64,000 bases of DNA from NCBI RefSeq assembly GCF_011393335.1, contig NZ_CP049865.1:3304722-3368721 (forward strand), written 5' to 3'. A program made the translations under genes and the position numbers. Under the pieces are notes generated by a model. The model ran no database searches. It had not been told where the DNA came from and was given only the letters and a program-made list of their open reading frames with translations. This DNA comes from Propioniciclava coleopterorum (lineage in GTDB: Bacteria > Actinomycetota > Actinomycetes > Propionibacteriales > Propionibacteriaceae). This document shows, one piece after another, positions 30,921 through 41,821 of the stretch (its first letter is position 1; each line of letters begins with the position of its first letter).

Positions 30921-30949
30921 TTGACAGCGTTATGGCGTCACCCTCAGAT
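30921..30949 (+). promoter_or_regulatory. Promoter of the secreted lectin gene
   Basis: Consensus -35 TTGACA (30921-30926), a 17-base spacer and a weak -10 TCAGAT (30944-30949), ending 7 bases before the ATG. Confidence 0.6.
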
Positions 30950-30956
30950 TTGGCGC

Positions 30957-31436
30957 ATGCACCGCACCCTCAGGCTTCTGCTCACCGCCCTCGCCGGCGT
31001 GTTCCTCTCGCTGTCGCTCGTCATCACGAGCGCGCCCTCCGCCTCGGCAGCCCCCGGATCCTCCTCGGAGATCAGGACCGTCGGCGGCACCCAGACCGTC
31101 TGCATCCAGGCCAGCGGCCGCTACAACAACGTGTTCACCCAGCAGTGCTGGATCGATCGCCACCTCGGCTACTGGTCGTTCACCAAGGTCGGCGGCTACT
31201 GGCGCATCACGCACAAGTACTCGGGCAAGCGGCTCGACAGCAACGCGGCCGGGTCGGTCTACCTGCACGCCCCGAACACCGGCAACTATCAGCTGTGGGT
31301 CGTCCAGGACCGCGGCAACGGCCAGTACCGGCTGTTGAACCGGGGGACCGGCCGCTGCCTCAACAACGGCTACTGGCTCGGCCGCGTGACGACCCAGCCC
31401 TGCAGCACGAGCAAGGACCAGCTCTACCGGATCTGA
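30957..31436 (+). CDS. Secreted ricin-type beta-trefoil lectin domain protein
   Basis: 159 residues. A Sec signal peptide (about 1-35, RTLRLLLTALAGVFLSLSLV then SASAAPG with an AxA cleavage site) leads to one ricin B-like domain, with QLWVVQDRGNGQYRL (the QxW element) and TGRCLNNG. There is no catalytic domain, so it is a free secreted carbohydrate-binding protein or an adhesin. ATG 30957 is preferred because the promoter overlaps any earlier start. It is followed at once by the repeat array at 31437-32341. Confidence 0.85.
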   Translation: MHRTLRLLLTALAGVFLSLSLVITSAPSASAAPGSSSEIRTVGGTQTVCIQASGRYNNVFTQQCWIDRHLGYWSFTKVGGYWRITHKYSGKRLDSNAAGSVYLHAPNTGNYQLWVVQDRGNGQYRLLNRGTGRCLNNGYWLGRVTTQPCSTSKDQLYRI

Positions 31437-31510
31437 CCGAGCTGGCCCTCCCGGCCGTCCCCGAGCCGCCCGCGTTTGCGACGAGCCGCCCCGGTTTGCG
31501 ACGAGCCGCC

Positions 31511-31608
31511 CCGCTTGGGGCAGTTGCCCCCGTTCCTGCGTGGGCAACTGGCGGAAACGGGGGCGTCTGCGTGGGGTGGGGCAGCGCGTGCTGGGGCCGC
31601 CCGCGTTT
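31511..31608. repeat. Long repeat unit 1 (with hairpin)
   Basis: Contains perfect arms CAGTTGCCC (31521-31529) and GGGCAACTG (31542-31550) around a 12-base loop, then AACGGGGGCGTCTGCGTGG. Confidence 0.85.
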
Positions 31609-31841
31609 GCGACGAGCCGCCCGTGCTTGTGACGAGCCGCCCGCGTTCGCGACGAGCCGCCCGCGTTCGCGACGAGCCGCCCCCGCCAGCGACGAACCGC
31701 CCCCGCCAGCGACGAACCGCCCCCGCCAGCGACGAGCCGCCTCCGCTCGCGACGAGCCGCCCCCGTTTGCGATGAGCCGCCCGCGTTTGCGACGAACCGC
31801 CCCCGCTCGCGATGAGCCGCCCGCGTTCGCGACGAGCCGCC
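31609..31841. repeat. Uninterrupted array of twelve 20-bp direct repeats
   Basis: Core GCGACGAGCCGCC starts at 31609, 31629, 31649, 31669, 31689, 31709, 31729, 31749, 31769, 31789, 31809 and 31829, with substitutions (GACGAACC, GATGAGCC) but strict 20-base spacing. The 7 bases between cores vary (CGCGTTT, CGCGTTC, CCGCCAG-type, CCGCTCG-type). Confidence 0.9.
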
Positions 31842-31943
31842 CCCGCTTGGGGCAGTTGCCCCCGTTCCTGCGTGGGCAACTGGCGGAAACGGGGGCGTCT
31901 GCGTGGGGTGGGGCAGCGCGTGCTGGGGGGCCGCCCCGCGTTT
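31842..31943. repeat. Long repeat unit 2
   Basis: Nearly identical to unit 1 over its first 80 bases, including the CAGTTGCCC/GGGCAACTG hairpin. Confidence 0.85.
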
Positions 31944-31996
31944 GCGACGAGCAGCCCCCGCTTGCGACGAGCCGCCCGCGTTCGCGACGAGCCGCC

Positions 31997-32095
31997 CCCG
32001 CTTGGGGCAGTTGCCCCCGTTCCTGCGTGGGCAACTGACGCTAACGGGGGCGTCTGCGTGGGTGGGGCAGCCCGTGCTGGGGGCCGCCCGCGTTT
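31997..32095. repeat. Long repeat unit 3
   Basis: Same hairpin as units 1 and 2, but GACGCTAACGGGGG replaces GGCGGAAACGGGGG after it. Confidence 0.85.
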
Positions 32096-32128
32096 GCGAC
32101 GAGCCGCCCCCGTTTGCGACGAGCCGCC

Positions 32129-32228
32129 TCCGCTTGGGCCAGTGGCCCCCGTTCCTACGTGGGCGACTGACGCTAACGGGGGCGTCTGCGTGGGGTGGGG
32201 CAGCGCGTGCTGGGGAGCCGCCCCTCTA
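32129..32228. repeat. Long repeat unit 4
   Basis: Hairpin arms are diverged (CAGTGGCCC / GGGCGACTG); the downstream half matches unit 3. Confidence 0.8.
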
Positions 32229-32241
32229 GCGACGAGCCGCC

Positions 32242-32330
32242 CCCGCATGGGTCAGTTGGGCCCGTTCCTGCGTGGGCGGCTGACGCAAACGGGGGCGACT
32301 GCGTCGGTGGGTCAGCGTGCGACCGTCGGG
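32242..32330. repeat. Long repeat unit 5, degenerate end copy
   Basis: Recognisable by CCCGTTCCTGCGTGGGC and CAAACGGGGGCGACTGCGT, but the arms no longer pair well. It ends just before the SDR gene's stop. Confidence 0.7.
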
Positions 32331-32341
32331 ACGCGAGACGG

Positions 32342-33103
32342 TCAGCGGACGTAGACGCCGCCGTTGATGTCGATGATCGTGCCGGTCACGAACCCGGCGG
32401 CGTCGCTGGCGAGCCACAGCACCGCGCCGGCGCAGTCGGCGGGGATGCCCGGCCGGCCGACGGGGATGCCCGCCACGATCTGCTTGCGGGCCTCGTCGGC
32501 GGTGAAGGTTTCGTGGAAGGGCGTGTCGTCGATGAAGCCGGGGGCCAGCGCGTTGACGGTGATGCCCTGGGGCGCGAGCTCGCGGGCCAGTCCCTTGGTG
32601 AGGCCGAAGACGGCCGCCTTGGAGGTGGCGTAGGCCGTCGCCCCGGGGCCGCCGCCGTTGTGGCCGGCCAGCGATGCGACGTTGACGATGCGTCCGCGGC
32701 CGTCGCTGAGGAACGGCTGCACGGCGCGGGTGACGTAGTAGGCGGAGTCGAGGTTCACCGCCATCACCTGGCGCCACAGGTCGGCGTCCAGCTCGGGCAG
32801 CGGCGCGCGCCGGACCATGCCGCCGGCGTTGTTCACCAGGATGTCGAGGGCGCCGAACTCGTCGCGCAGTTCGGTGGCGAACGCCTGGACGGCGGCTTCG
32901 TCGGTGGCGTCGAGCGGGCGCGCGAACGGCTCGTGCCCGGCGGCGGCCAGCGCGTCGAGCAACTCGGCGTCCGGCTCGTGGGTGCGGTAGGTGACCGCGG
33001 TGCGGACGCCGGCGCGGGCCAGCGCGATCGCGATGCCGCGGCCGATGCCGACGCCGCCGCCCGTGACGAGGGCGGTGCGGCCGGCGAGGGTGTCGTTGCT
33101 CAT
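32342..33103 (-). CDS. SDR-family NAD(P)-dependent oxidoreductase
   Basis: 253 residues, a classical short-chain dehydrogenase. The cofactor loop TGGGVGIGRG (about 14-23), NNAGG near 90, the catalytic Ser in VASLAGHN and YATSKAA (Tyr-x-x-x-Lys) near 155 are intact. It resembles FabG/glucose dehydrogenase types; the substrate is unknown. The start has AGGAG upstream, and TAGGGT (33132-33137, minus strand) gives a leader of about 25 bases. Confidence 0.92.
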   Translation of the reverse strand: MSNDTLAGRTALVTGGGVGIGRGIAIALARAGVRTAVTYRTHEPDAELLDALAAAGHEPFARPLDATDEAAVQAFATELRDEFGALDILVNNAGGMVRRAPLPELDADLWRQVMAVNLDSAYYVTRAVQPFLSDGRGRIVNVASLAGHNGGGPGATAYATSKAAVFGLTKGLARELAPQGITVNALAPGFIDDTPFHETFTADEARKQIVAGIPVGRPGIPADCAGAVLWLASDAAGFVTGTIIDINGGVYVR

Positions 33104-34333: not shown

Positions 34334-35287
34334 TCAGCGGGTCGCGGCGAACAGCCCGCGACGGAGCAGCGCCTGGTCGCCCAGCCGGTGGCGCAGCGTC
34401 CGCTCCAGCCCGCTGATCGGGTACAGGTTCTGCGGGGCGCGGGGTTCGCGGAACGGCTCGCTGGCGTACCGGGGCAGCACGGCCTGCGACAGGGACGCCA
34501 GGGCGACGGCCTCCTCGCGAGGCAGGTCGGGGGAGCACTCGATCCGGACCACGCCCGAGCGCGGCGTGGCCGCCCCGCCCGGCAGCCGGAGGTACCAGGT
34601 GTAGCGCTCCCACGTCGTGCCGAGCAGGAACACCGGGGTGCGCTCGCCGGGCTCCAGCGCCGACACGACGTGGTTCAGCTCGGGCGGCAGGTAGGTGGTG
34701 TGGTGCGACTTCACCAGGCCTATCGCGCGCGGGACCTTCGTGCGGCCCAGCAGGGGGCCGTCGATGACGAGCAGGTCGTCGGTGTCGTCGCCCGATCGGG
34801 CGCGGGCGTTCGCCGCGCAGATGATCTCCAGCTCGCCCAGCTTCTGCTGCAGGGCCAGCGACAGCACGTCGAAGATCTGCTTGCCGGGGTCGGGCTTGGC
34901 GTGCACGGCGGCCCAGGTACCGAACCTGGTCGGGATGTCCTCGGCCTCGTCGGCGGTGGTCAGCAGCGCGCGGCGGACCTCGGCCATCTCGACGCTCGCC
35001 CCCTCGGCGGTGGAGCGGACGATCCCGGCGGCGTAGGAGGCGCAGAGCGCGGGCTCGGCGTCCGGCCCGCCGTCGGGGCTGATCCACAGCCGCGCCTCCT
35101 CGCGGCGGATCCCGTCGACGAAGAGCAGGGTGCCCGGCACCCGCGCGCCCGCCGGCGCGACGGGCCCCCAGCGCTCCGGCGGGACCTCGACGGCCGGGTC
35201 GAGCTGGGCCACCGACTGCGCCAGCTCCTCGGCTTCCTGGACGCTGGAGCCGTAATCGGGCGCCCAGCCGTCGACGGAGAAGCGCAT
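34334..35287 (-). CDS. nurA: NurA-like nuclease domain protein
   Basis: 317 residues. Two acidic motifs match the NurA active site: LLFVDGIRREEARLWI (Asp 58) and LLVIDGPLLGR (Asp 176). NurA is a 5'-3' nuclease that works with the HerA translocase in end resection in archaea and some bacteria. It is the last gene of the herA-sbcD-sbcC-nurA run, its ATG overlapping the sbcC stop (ATGA). Similarity to archaeal NurA is limited to motifs and context, so nuclease activity is an inference. Confidence 0.75.
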   Translation of the reverse strand: MRFSVDGWAPDYGSSVQEAEELAQSVAQLDPAVEVPPERWGPVAPAGARVPGTLLFVDGIRREEARLWISPDGGPDAEPALCASYAAGIVRSTAEGASVEMAEVRRALLTTADEAEDIPTRFGTWAAVHAKPDPGKQIFDVLSLALQQKLGELEIICAANARARSGDDTDDLLVIDGPLLGRTKVPRAIGLVKSHHTTYLPPELNHVVSALEPGERTPVFLLGTTWERYTWYLRLPGGAATPRSGVVRIECSPDLPREEAVALASLSQAVLPRYASEPFREPRAPQNLYPISGLERTLRHRLGDQALLRRGLFAATR

Positions 35288-38200
35288 CAGCCCTCCCGCA
35301 CGACGGTCGAGGACCGGGAACTGCGCGACACGTTGAACCGGGTCGGGATCCGCTCGGCGAGCCCCTGCACGTGGGTGACGACCCCCACCAGGCGGTCGCC
35401 CTGGGCCAGCCGCTCCAGCGTGAGGGCGACGACCTCCAGGCTGTCGGGATCCAGGGAGCCGAAGCCCTCGTCGAGGAAGATCGACTCCAGCCGGCCGGCC
35501 TTCGACGACATCGACCCGAGTTCGGCCGACAGCGCCAGGGCGAGCGCCAGGCTGGCCTGGAACGTCTCGCCGCCGGACAGCGTGCGGACCGAGCGTCGCG
35601 CCTCGGCGTCGGTGTGGTCGACGACGTGAAACTCGCCGTTGTCGTGCCCCAGCGTGAACTGGCCGCCGGAGAGCTCCAGCAGCGAGGACGACGCCGACTC
35701 GACCAGGACGTCCAGGGCGGCGCCGGCGAGCCAGCGCTGGAACTTCCGTGCGTTCATGTGCTGGGCGAGCAGATCGGCGACCTGGCGGCGCGCCTCGGTG
35801 TCGGCCCGGGCGGCGCGCAGCGTCACGAGCTTGTCGAGGTCGTCCACGATCCTGCGGTGCAGATCGTGCGCTAGGGCCTGCTGCGCGGCCACGGCGGAAG
35901 CGACCTCGCCGGACGCCGTCACCTCGACGCCGCGGGTGAGGGCCGCGTCCAGCAGGGCGAGATCCGCCGCGGCGACGCCCTCGTCGGCCGCGACGACGGC
36001 GTCGCGGGCACGCTGCAGCGACTCCGCGGCGTCCGCGCGGGTGTCGTGCGCCCACGCCGCCAGGGCGGCCCAGGCGGCCGGCAGGTCCGAGGGGTCCACG
36101 GCGGGCGCGCCGAGCGGGATGAGGGGCTCGCGCGTCTCGCGGAGCAGCGCGCCGGCTGCTGTCACCTCCCGGCCCAGCGCTGCCTGGCTGGCCAGGGCGG
36201 CGTCCCGGGCGCGACCGGCATCGGTCCGCGCGGTGAGCGTCACCCGCTCGCGTTCCTCCAGCCCGGTCAGCAGGTCGAGGTCCTGGGCCGTCTGCTCCGC
36301 GTCGGGCGCGCCGTCGAGGGCGGAGGCGAGCTCGTCGCGGCGGGCCCGGGCACGCGCGAGGGTGTCCTCGGCGCGCACGGACGCCGCCCCGGCCACGCGC
36401 ACGGCGTCCGCGGCGCGCTGCCGTTCGGCGGCTGCTCGTTCGAGCGTGGCCCCGGCGGCTGCTAGGGCGTCGGCCGCGGCGTCCCGTGCCGACCGCGCGT
36501 CGGGCAGGGCGTCGTCGTCGAGCCGCGCGACCTCGGTGGCGGCCCAGCCGGCGAGCTGCCGCCACGCCTCGTGCAGCGGCAGGGCGTCGGTGTCGGGTGC
36601 CCCCAGCGGGGCGACCCCGGCGCGCGCCGAACGCAGGCCTGCGAGGGCGGCGTGCCGCTCGGAATCGAGGGCGCCGGCGGCCCGGGTCGCGCCCGCGAGC
36701 GCGTCGCGGCGGGCGAGGCGCTCGGCGTCGGCCAGGTCGGCGGCGGCGCGGGCCTCGTTGGCCCTGGCCAGCGCGGTCGCCGCGGCCTCGCGCAGCGCGG
36801 CCGGGTCGCCGCCGTCGGGCAGCAGGGTGGCCAGCTGCTCCCGCGCCTGCGTGACGGCGCGGGCGTGCCCCCTGACCTCGGACTCCGCGCGGGTCGCGGC
36901 GTCGCGGGCGCTGCGGGCGGCGGCCTCGGCGTCCCGGAGAGCGGAGCGGGCCGCGTCCGCCTCGGAGGAGTCGAGGGGGGAGGGGAGCGTCGCGACGGTC
37001 GCGGTGCAGACCGGACACGCGTCGCCGACGCGCAGGTGCCCGCGCAGGCCCGCGGCGGTCGCCACCTCGAGGGCGGCGTCCGCCCGGACACGCGCGCGCT
37101 CCAGGTCGGCGTCGGCCGTCTCAGCGTCCTCGCGTGCCCGGTCGAGCGCGGCGCGGGCCGTCTCGTGGTCGCGCTCCAGCCCCGCGGCCGTGGCCGCCAG
37201 TTCGAGCGCCTCGCCGTAGCGCCGTTCCTCGGCTGCGAACGCGTCGCGGTCACCGGCCGCCCGCAGGGCGCTCCGGGCCAGCTCGTCGGCCGCCTCGGCC
37301 TCGGCGTGCGCCCGCGTGGCGCCCTCGACCTCCGCGGCGGCGGCGTCCAGGCGCGCGGCCAGGTCGTCGAGCCCGTCGGGCGGGGTCAGCGCGGCGACGG
37401 TGGTGCGGCGGCCGAGCAGGCCCGTCAGGGCCGCCTCGGCGTCGGCGTCGGTGCGCTCCGCGGTGAACCGGGCCGCGACGGCCTCGGTGTGGGCGATCTC
37501 TGCGGAGGCCAGCGACTCCCGGGCCGACGCCTCCTCGTCGCGGACCCGGACGGTTGCCTCGGCCAGGGCGGGCAGCGCCGCGTCCAGTTCGGCGTGCTCG
37601 GTCCATTGCTCCCGGCGGCGCTCCAGCACCGACCGGGTGCCGGCGGCCTCGAGGGCCTCACGGGCAGCGGTGAAGGCGTCCTCGGCGTCGGCCGCGGCGG
37701 CGGCGAGCCGCTCGGCCTCCGCCCGTGCGGCGGCGGAGCGCTCCGCCAGGTCGGCCACGCCGTCGGGGATCGTGACGGCATCGAGCCGGGCGACGGTGTG
37801 CTGGGCGGCGGTCAGGGCGTCGGCGGCAGTCCGGGAGCGGTCGCGCGCCGCGTCCAGGTCGCGCCGCAGCCCCTCGGTGAGCGTGCCGAGCGCCTGCAGG
37901 TCGGCCAGGCGTGCGGCCGCCCGCTCGGCAGCCTCGGGGGTGGCGTCGGAGAGATCGTCGATCCGGGCGTCGGCGGTGGCCAGCTCGGCGTCGGCCTGGC
38001 TGCGGCGCGCGCCGGCGGCGCGCCCGATGGCGTCGTACTGGAAGGCGCCCAGCAGCTTGAGCAGGATGTCCTGCCGCTCGCGGCTGGTGGCGTTCAGGAA
38101 CTCGGCGAACCGGCCCTGCGGCAGGACGACGGCCTTGGTGAAGTCCTCGAAGCTCAGCCCCAGCAGCTCCTGCACGGCAGGGGTCACCTCGCGCACCTCG

Positions 38201-38580
38201 GTGGCCAGCGGCTGCACGTGGTCGCTGTCGGCCGTGGCGCTCGTGGGGTCGTCGAACCGCTCCAGGGTGGCCGACTTCTGCAGCGGCTTCCCCCCGACGC
38301 GCCGCACCTCGCGGGCGACCTGATAGCGCTCGCCGCCGACGTCGAACACGAAGCGGACGGTGCCGCTGTTGACGGTGGGCGCAAGGGCGTACTGGACCGA
38401 CGCGGCCCGATCCCAGCGAGGTGCCGTGCCGTACAGCGCGAACACCATGGCGTCGATCACGGTCGACTTGCCGGCGCCGGTGGGGCCGACGAGCGCGAAG
38501 TAGTCCGCACCCTCGAAGTCGACGGTGGTGGCGGTGCGGAACGACGCGAAGCCGTTCATCTCCAGGCGGACCGGGCGCAT
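35287..38580 (-). CDS. sbcC: SbcC/Rad50-like ATPase of the DNA-end nuclease complex
   Basis: 1097 residues. Walker A GPTGAGKST near 33, then very long Ala/Glu/Arg-rich coiled coils broken at the centre by the CPVC zinc hook (residues 522-525). The C-terminal ATPase half has LSGGETFQASLALALALS and IFLDEGFGSLD. With SbcD (Mre11) it forms the clamp that opens and cleaves hairpins and protein-blocked DNA ends. The ATG overlaps the sbcD stop and the stop overlaps the nurA start, so all are translationally coupled. Confidence 0.96.
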   Translation of the reverse strand: MRPVRLEMNGFASFRTATTVDFEGADYFALVGPTGAGKSTVIDAMVFALYGTAPRWDRAASVQYALAPTVNSGTVRFVFDVGGERYQVAREVRRVGGKPLQKSATLERFDDPTSATADSDHVQPLATEVREVTPAVQELLGLSFEDFTKAVVLPQGRFAEFLNATSRERQDILLKLLGAFQYDAIGRAAGARRSQADAELATADARIDDLSDATPEAAERAAARLADLQALGTLTEGLRRDLDAARDRSRTAADALTAAQHTVARLDAVTIPDGVADLAERSAAARAEAERLAAAAADAEDAFTAAREALEAAGTRSVLERRREQWTEHAELDAALPALAEATVRVRDEEASARESLASAEIAHTEAVAARFTAERTDADAEAALTGLLGRRTTVAALTPPDGLDDLAARLDAAAAEVEGATRAHAEAEAADELARSALRAAGDRDAFAAEERRYGEALELAATAAGLERDHETARAALDRAREDAETADADLERARVRADAALEVATAAGLRGHLRVGDACPVCTATVATLPSPLDSSEADAARSALRDAEAAARSARDAATRAESEVRGHARAVTQAREQLATLLPDGGDPAALREAAATALARANEARAAADLADAERLARRDALAGATRAAGALDSERHAALAGLRSARAGVAPLGAPDTDALPLHEAWRQLAGWAATEVARLDDDALPDARSARDAAADALAAAGATLERAAAERQRAADAVRVAGAASVRAEDTLARARARRDELASALDGAPDAEQTAQDLDLLTGLEERERVTLTARTDAGRARDAALASQAALGREVTAAGALLRETREPLIPLGAPAVDPSDLPAAWAALAAWAHDTRADAAESLQRARDAVVAADEGVAAADLALLDAALTRGVEVTASGEVASAVAAQQALAHDLHRRIVDDLDKLVTLRAARADTEARRQVADLLAQHMNARKFQRWLAGAALDVLVESASSSLLELSGGQFTLGHDNGEFHVVDHTDAEARRSVRTLSGGETFQASLALALALSAELGSMSSKAGRLESIFLDEGFGSLDPDSLEVVALTLERLAQGDRLVGVVTHVQGLAERIPTRFNVSRSSRSSTVVREG

Positions 38581-41489: not shown

Positions 41490-41821
41490 GGAGCCTTCCA
41501 CGCGAGGGATCAGGGTTCGTCGTCACGATAGCGCCGCCCACCGACAGAATCCGGCGAATCCCGGCGGGGTCGCCCGGGCGCGGGGCGGCATGCGACCGGG
41601 GCGCTGCAGCAGGGGCCGCTCGGAGGGGGTTCCGGCGGGCCAGGAGCGCGCCGGTTGGAGGGACGCGCCGGGGCGGGCGCCGCACCGGTGGGAGGGGGCG
41701 CCAGGGTCGGACGCCGCCCGATGGGAAGGGCGCGCCCGAGGGAGGACGCCGCACGGCGTCCACGGCTGACGGCCGTAGTCGCAGCCTTGACGGCCCGCAC
41801 AACGGCGTCCACGATGCTGAG
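41490..41821. other. Divergent intergenic region upstream of herA
   Basis: A 332-base gap. Near herA, a TATCGT hexamer (minus strand, 41525-41530) is a likely -10 with a ~35-base leader and GGAAGG ribosome site. The rest is GC-rich with imperfect GGAGGGCGCC-type repeats; I see no gene in it. Confidence 0.5.

Follow-up and report, generated by a model that had tools for sequence, protein, structure and literature searches.

Results

A composite repeat array between two convergent genes

The window, i.e. the whole stretch of 64,000 nucleotides that was analysed, corresponds to positions 3304722-3368721 of the Propioniciclava coleopterorum genome (one contig, 3,671,901 bases) and harbors a repeat array between two convergent genes. 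The forward-strand gene on its left (30921..31436, stop at 31436) encodes a small protein with a ricin-type beta-trefoil lectin-like domain (PF14200), which is likely secreted judging from its signal-like start, and the reverse-strand gene on its right (32342..33103, stop at 32342) encodes a short-chain dehydrogenase/reductase (SDR, PF13561). The gap between the two stop codons extends from 31437 to 32341, as already described in an earlier interpretation based on the letters alone (the sequence-only reading), but the repeats do not occupy it completely, as had been proposed, and fill the part from 31458 to 32310.

The array contains 21 copies of a 20-bp unit, in agreement with the approximately 20 copies reported before, and these are arranged in runs of 3, 12, 3, 2 and 1, so that the previously given range of 2 to 12 per run does not hold for the single unit. 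Each run is closed by a palindromic hairpin module, which confirms the composite architecture of 20-bp units and five hairpins. All runs and modules lie on the forward strand; the runs were delimited by TRF and by reading, the modules by matches to the covariance model R1 (see below). Run 1 (31458..31517) comprises three units, of which the first is degenerate and the third enters module 1 (31498..31578), a palindrome with a core of ~60 nt. After a locus-specific spacer with approximate limits (31579..31595, by reading), which has varied repeats after modules 2-4, run 2 follows with twelve units and a partial one (31596..31848; TRF: 31596-31847, period 20, 12.6 copies) and leads into module 2 (31829..31910). 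Run 3 (31930..32003, three units and a partial one) precedes module 3 (31984..32065), run 4 (32083..32136, two units and a partial one) precedes module 4 (32116..32197), and a single unit followed by module 5 (32229..32310, unit by reading) completes the array.

From start to start, consecutive modules are 332, 155, 132 and 113 bp apart. What had been taken for five hairpin units of ~100 bp are indeed five hairpin modules, but the ~100 bp consist of a module of ~60 nt, which occurs genome-wide, and a locus-specific spacer. Likewise, the stem considered as conserved, CAGTTGCCC/GGGCAACTG, is matched exactly by modules 1-3 only, whereas the stem is CAGTGGCCC/GGGCGACTG in module 4 and CAGTTGGGC/GGGCGGCTG in module 5.

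The module, but not the direct unit, folds into a stable hairpin

Over all clusters of the genome, the unit has the consensus G[C/G]GACGAG[C/T]CGCCC[C/G]CG[T/C]T[T/C], with the best conservation at positions 11-14 (GCCC, 1.65-1.83 bits) and the least at positions 2, 9, 15, 17, 18 and 20. Among the 503 neighbour steps shorter than 45 bp, 435 measure 20 bp, 29 measure 19 bp and 10 measure 21 bp. Open reading frames cross the array on both strands, yet a step that is not a multiple of 3, together with the 19- and 21-bp variants, excludes a conserved frame, and the translation into a conserved protein, which would have spoken against a repeat element, can thus be dismissed.

The module is a palindrome of ~60 nt that forms a long G+C-rich hairpin and reads, by eye, AGNCGCCCCCGYTTGNGTCAGTTGCCC-loop-GGGCAACTGACGCAAACGGGGGCGWCT. 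The 20-bp unit recurs as its outer arm, from which we conclude that the direct run is an extension of one palindrome arm. The RNA folds of 31830-31905 (module 2; −46.7 kcal/mol, z −3.54) and 31985-32060 (module 3; −50.1 kcal/mol, z −5.18) are strong, and overall five modules of this genome and one hairpin of the congener G006 folded better than all of 200 shuffled sequences (z −3.5 to −7.3), whereas one 80-nt stretch of direct units alone showed no folding excess over shuffles (z +0.45). Within the genome, the palindrome showed no covariation beyond the column make-up (80.5% paired compared to 80.1% with partners shuffled), and a selection on RNA structure within the genome is therefore unsupported by this test. 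A search against Rfam yielded six weak matches, all far below the gathering threshold (best 21.3 bits compared to 77 needed).

At least 39 clusters are dispersed in the genome

The genome was searched with the unit core, with the module as DNA and with a covariance model (A1, R1) derived from 60 modules set in array orientation. The array turned out not to be an element of one site, as the sequence-only reading had treated it, since at least 39 similar clusters with altogether 592 units and 20,424 bp are present in the same genome; 35 of the 37 examined regions hold these clusters with at least one module each, whereas L079 and L082 have no more than a chance occurrence of the core within coding DNA. 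As the clusters are located at separate sites and the genome is assembled in one contig, an assembly artefact is excluded as well. The genome-wide core search that had been suggested gave 57 occurrences of the 13-base core compared to 14 for the reversed control pattern, some of the 57 being single hits in coding DNA as in L079 and L082, and the hairpin pattern gave 43 + 43 matches compared to 0 + 0 for its control. With 144 strand matches of R1 among 150 scored candidates, the number of modules is at least ~72. The cluster positions along the chromosome did not depart from a uniform distribution (KS p 0.55).

Most modules are preceded by runs of the 20-bp unit, and blocks of run, module and spacer repeat within a locus; in the loci inspected, the spacer after the module recurs inside a locus and differs between loci. 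Modules and units share one orientation inside each of the clusters inspected. The asymmetric loop of the 60 modules occurs in one orientation in 21 cases, in the opposite one in 23 and in other forms in 16, and it is uniform inside each cluster, considering that the two modules of L065 sit in two separate clusters. This pattern fits a local duplication of whole blocks and an indifference to which arm bears the run. Units within a locus are also more alike (0.737) than with shuffled locus labels (0.701; maximum of 200 shuffles 0.709), which indicates local homogenisation, and the earlier statement that the array is not a fresh slippage product stands. We found no clear gradient that would mark growth of the runs from one end, the neighbour identity being 0.76-0.81 by distance from the module.

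Two regions, L128 and L065, contain oppositely oriented cluster pairs that enclose ~580 bp and ~1.1 kb, respectively. At L068:1833-2163, a solo module directly adjoins what is left of an M20 peptidase gene, namely 78 residues of the C-terminus (PF01546, profile 145-205 of 206).

Clusters prefer convergent over divergent gene pairs

According to gene calls from a home-made codon-score script, the clusters are intergenic with one doubtful exception, L068, which overlaps an ORF whose call is itself doubtful. Of the 39 clusters, 17 lie between convergent genes, 18 between tandem genes and 4 between divergent genes. Since a circular chromosome has the same number of convergent and divergent pairs, the ratio of 17 to 4 reflects a bias towards convergent sites (p 0.007). 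In 29 of the 39 clusters the closest gene end is a 3' end, although ~26 would be expected by chance, given that 3' ends make up 52 of the 78 ends adjoining the clusters. Within the tandem pairs (18), the distance to the 3' end (median 64) was not significantly shorter than that to the 5' end (median 177.5; p 0.21), and the array orientation equaled the direction of transcription in 9 pairs and opposed it in the other 9. No shared neighbour function was apparent, with no Pfam family in more than 3 of the 75 flanking ORFs, and no intrinsic terminator with a T-run was detected in 31300-32450.

Solo hairpins, a near-empty site and differently spelled arrays in congeners

We compared a genus set of 13 genomes (the P. 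coleopterorum genome and 12 congeners) and a family set of 198 genomes. At E 0.01, R1 matched G006 (11 matches), G001 (4), G002 (4) and G012 (3), with no match in the other eight congeners including the closest one, G011. In the search of relatives that had been proposed, G006 was found to carry clearly homologous hairpins, the only such case among the 12 congeners, which occur as solo copies at at least 5 places and score up to 66 bits against the model; the matches in G001, G012 and G002 are weak and may be unrelated G+C-rich hairpins. In the family set, the hairpin pattern was present only in the P. coleopterorum genome and in G006 (2 + 2 matches). Among genome_contigs, eight stretches showed the hairpin pattern, of which one is the G006 contig and seven belong to unrelated organisms with at most 39.5 bits. 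One stem position is C-G in the P. coleopterorum genome (C in 7 of 9 rows, G in 9 of 9) and T-A in G006 (4 of 5 rows).

The ybeY-corC site illustrates the difference in length at an array locus: in the P. coleopterorum genome the aligned flanks are 1,233-1,315 bp apart and split by an array of ~1.1-1.2 kb, and of the nine congeners that align on both sides, seven have a gap of at most 165 bp (G011 52, G001 9, G009 165, G002 67, G012 about −19, a slight overlap, G005 54 and G006 32 bp, the latter measured at a second, less similar copy), while the gaps in G008 and G004 measure 823 and 744 bp and are filled with other DNA that R1 does not match. L062 was considered as a further empty site and discarded as unclean, since an alignment in G001, G009 and G011 was obtained for its right neighbour but not for its left one. 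G001 (L097) and G012 (L093) share one orthologous convergent gene pair, which carries long hairpins of different sequence in the two genomes; no such hairpin is present at the orthologous gene end of G006, and G005 and G002 carry other sequences there.

G002 contains composite arrays of its own with a 19-bp unit, ACGCTCCCCTTGGNNNCAN, and hairpins among the units, on five contigs (regions L094, L103, L108, L231 and L232, one of which ends near a tRNA gene). This unit had 14 + 4 matches with up to 3 mismatches in G002, and it was absent from the P. coleopterorum genome and the other 195 genomes of the family set, apart from one hit with 3 mismatches in G003, which lies inside a small hairpin and is followed by a short direct repeat. 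The evidence for these arrays is independent of the weak R1 matches in G002. They resemble the family of the window in architecture and might be homologous to it. As G002 has 7% contamination, another organism could be the source of its arrays.

Discussion

The repeat family described here is REP/BIME-like in kind. REPs are extragenic palindromes that form clusters with repeated flanking segments and include transposase-less families (CGTC), and REP-like families without a tag occur in M. tuberculosis and D. radiodurans, according to PMC3733652 and PMC2817692; a preference for unidirectional and convergent gene pairs is reported in the former. The present family is also palindromic, hairpin-forming, extragenic and dispersed, lies mostly between unidirectional or convergent pairs, forms clusters with locus-specific intervening segments and differs in related species. 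Its copy number (at least ~72 modules in 39 clusters) is compatible with such a family, yet below the more than 100 copies given as usual for REPs in PMC2817692. It differs in two respects, namely in the lack of a RAYT gene in its genome, unlike RAYT-associated REPs, and in the module orientation, which does not alternate as in BIMEs (PMC2817692). Moreover, the module of ~60 nt is longer than the 20-40 nt of REPs, and, by reading, CGTC was seen inside the stem or unit and no unpaired GTAG/CGTC end tag was recognised. Long direct runs of 20-base units that precede the hairpins are unusual compared to REPs, whose head-tail dimers are reported as absent or rare in most genomes (PMC3733652), and to BIMEs (PMC2817692), and so is a neighbouring species with a differently spelled version.

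A second point of comparison is the neisserial dRS3 (ATTCCC-N8-GGGAAT), a 20-bp repeat, which according to PMC2911385 builds large intergenic arrays that have expanded in only part of the species of a genus. The P. coleopterorum repeats are likewise 20 bp long and joined into large intergenic arrays, but dRS3 is an inverted repeat with A+T edges, which by reading is absent from our unit and module consensus, whereas our units are direct, G+C-rich and end in a hairpin module. The pneumococcal BOX/RUP-type elements are small interspersed modular repeats as well (PMC3049150), a likeness by description only. The earlier assertion that no described element has this architecture was therefore too strong, as the REP clusters and BIMEs and the neisserial dRS3 mosaic arrays are close in kind (PMC3733652, PMC2817692 and PMC2911385). 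In the open-licence literature, we found no report of this repeat family or of such arrays in Propionibacteriaceae.

From these results we consider it probable that the window array is one member of an extragenic repeat family which is lineage-specific and REP/BIME-like and which was dispersed by an unspecified route and amplified locally. The module might have spread by a transposase acting in trans or by copying through recombination or template switching at hairpins. Searches for Y1_Tnp (PF01797; RAYT or IS200/IS605) gave no match in the P. coleopterorum genome and matches in the control genomes, which means that the best-known mover of REPs is missing, and neither a target-site duplication nor an exact insertion boundary was readable. 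Further points that speak against this reading are the lack of covariation within the genome, the other DNA of G008 and G004 at ybeY-corC and the 3' distances in tandem pairs, which are not significantly shorter. At each site, slippage or unequal exchange would then multiply the 20-bp unit and subsequently whole blocks. The modules could build up 3' of genes because they are tolerated there, and perhaps because a long hairpin does no harm, or is of use, where transcripts end.

A stronger version of the latter idea would be a selected bidirectional 3'-end element, whose hairpins stop or protect the transcripts of converging genes and which was kept and spread for that reason. The bias towards convergent sites, the strong folding, the exchange of C-G for T-A between this genome and G006 and the different-sequence hairpins at the orthologous convergent site of G001 and G012 are consistent with it, as are the nearest 3' ends, although these hardly exceed their chance expectation. 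We nevertheless regard this as unlikely in view of the missing T-run terminators, the lack of covariation within the genome, the 18 tandem and 4 divergent sites and the other states of the G001/G012 site in G006, G005 and G002, and because the model has no room for runs of direct units of up to a dozen or more.

Quite unlikely in our view is a genus-wide class of species-specific composite satellites, in which one architecture (a direct unit of 19-20 bp and long hairpins at gene ends) would be kept per species while its sequence is replaced, by a fast-evolving hairpin-recognising enzyme or DNA-binding protein that writes and homogenises the repeats without RAYT. The 20-bp arrays of P. coleopterorum and the 19-bp arrays of G002 would be two such cases, the latter with the reservation about their origin given above.

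The arrays could also bind a protein (a nucleoid protein, or one of iteron or partition type), each 20-bp unit representing a site, which is suggested by the dominant 20-bp step, the well-conserved GCCC and the half-palindrome GCGAC-GA-GTCGC in the T variant. However, the steps of 19 and 21 bp, the variable unit positions and the even spread of the clusters without any clustering argue against it, as does the absence of the units from the closest congener (0 matches of R1 in G011). The DNA helical repeat is 10.5 bp per turn, so that 20 bp amount to 1.905 turns and the cores rotate by ~34 degrees per unit; the helical phase is lost, contrary to the earlier proposal of cores on one DNA face. The genes flanking the window array, inspected for a linked cognate binding protein, encode the lectin-like protein and the SDR. 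Nothing was found pointing to iterons, partition or a decoy as envisaged in the sequence-only reading, and we consider a binding array decidedly improbable. Finally, non-autonomous transposons or phage/IS target sites (MITE-/NIME-like), with modules as ends or targets and the enzyme elsewhere or lost, might account for the opposed cluster pairs of L128 and L065 and for the solo module beside the truncated peptidase gene of L068, but are very unlikely, given that Pfam gave no match for the ORF enclosed by the L065 pair, that transposases are missing from the 25 most shared of 126 neighbour families, and that the lack of any phage match, the absence of the exact patterns from viral_contigs and a single weak plasmid match (Embleya, 67% over 24%) also rule against phage or plasmid carriage.

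An REP/BIME-like family with local amplification explains the observed facts without any function for the 20-bp run, and the modules may play a role at the ends of transcripts. REP-like repeats have become known mainly from proteobacteria, and RAYT transposases are their usual explanation. Here, an actinobacterium without a Y1_Tnp domain carries dozens of composite hairpin and tandem arrays, with solo copies in one congener and differently spelled arrays in another, which makes the spread and uniformity of such repeats without RAYT directly testable. The arrays also represent hypervariable loci for strain typing.

An SbcC-like ATPase ORF (PF13558, PF13476) is located at 35287-38580 on the reverse strand of the window, ~3 kb from the array. 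Hairpins are cut by SbcCD in E. coli, and the position of this ORF is of interest given the hairpin-rich genome, but may be a coincidence. At 41647-41754 of the window, TRF identified a separate 34-bp tandem repeat with 3.2 copies.
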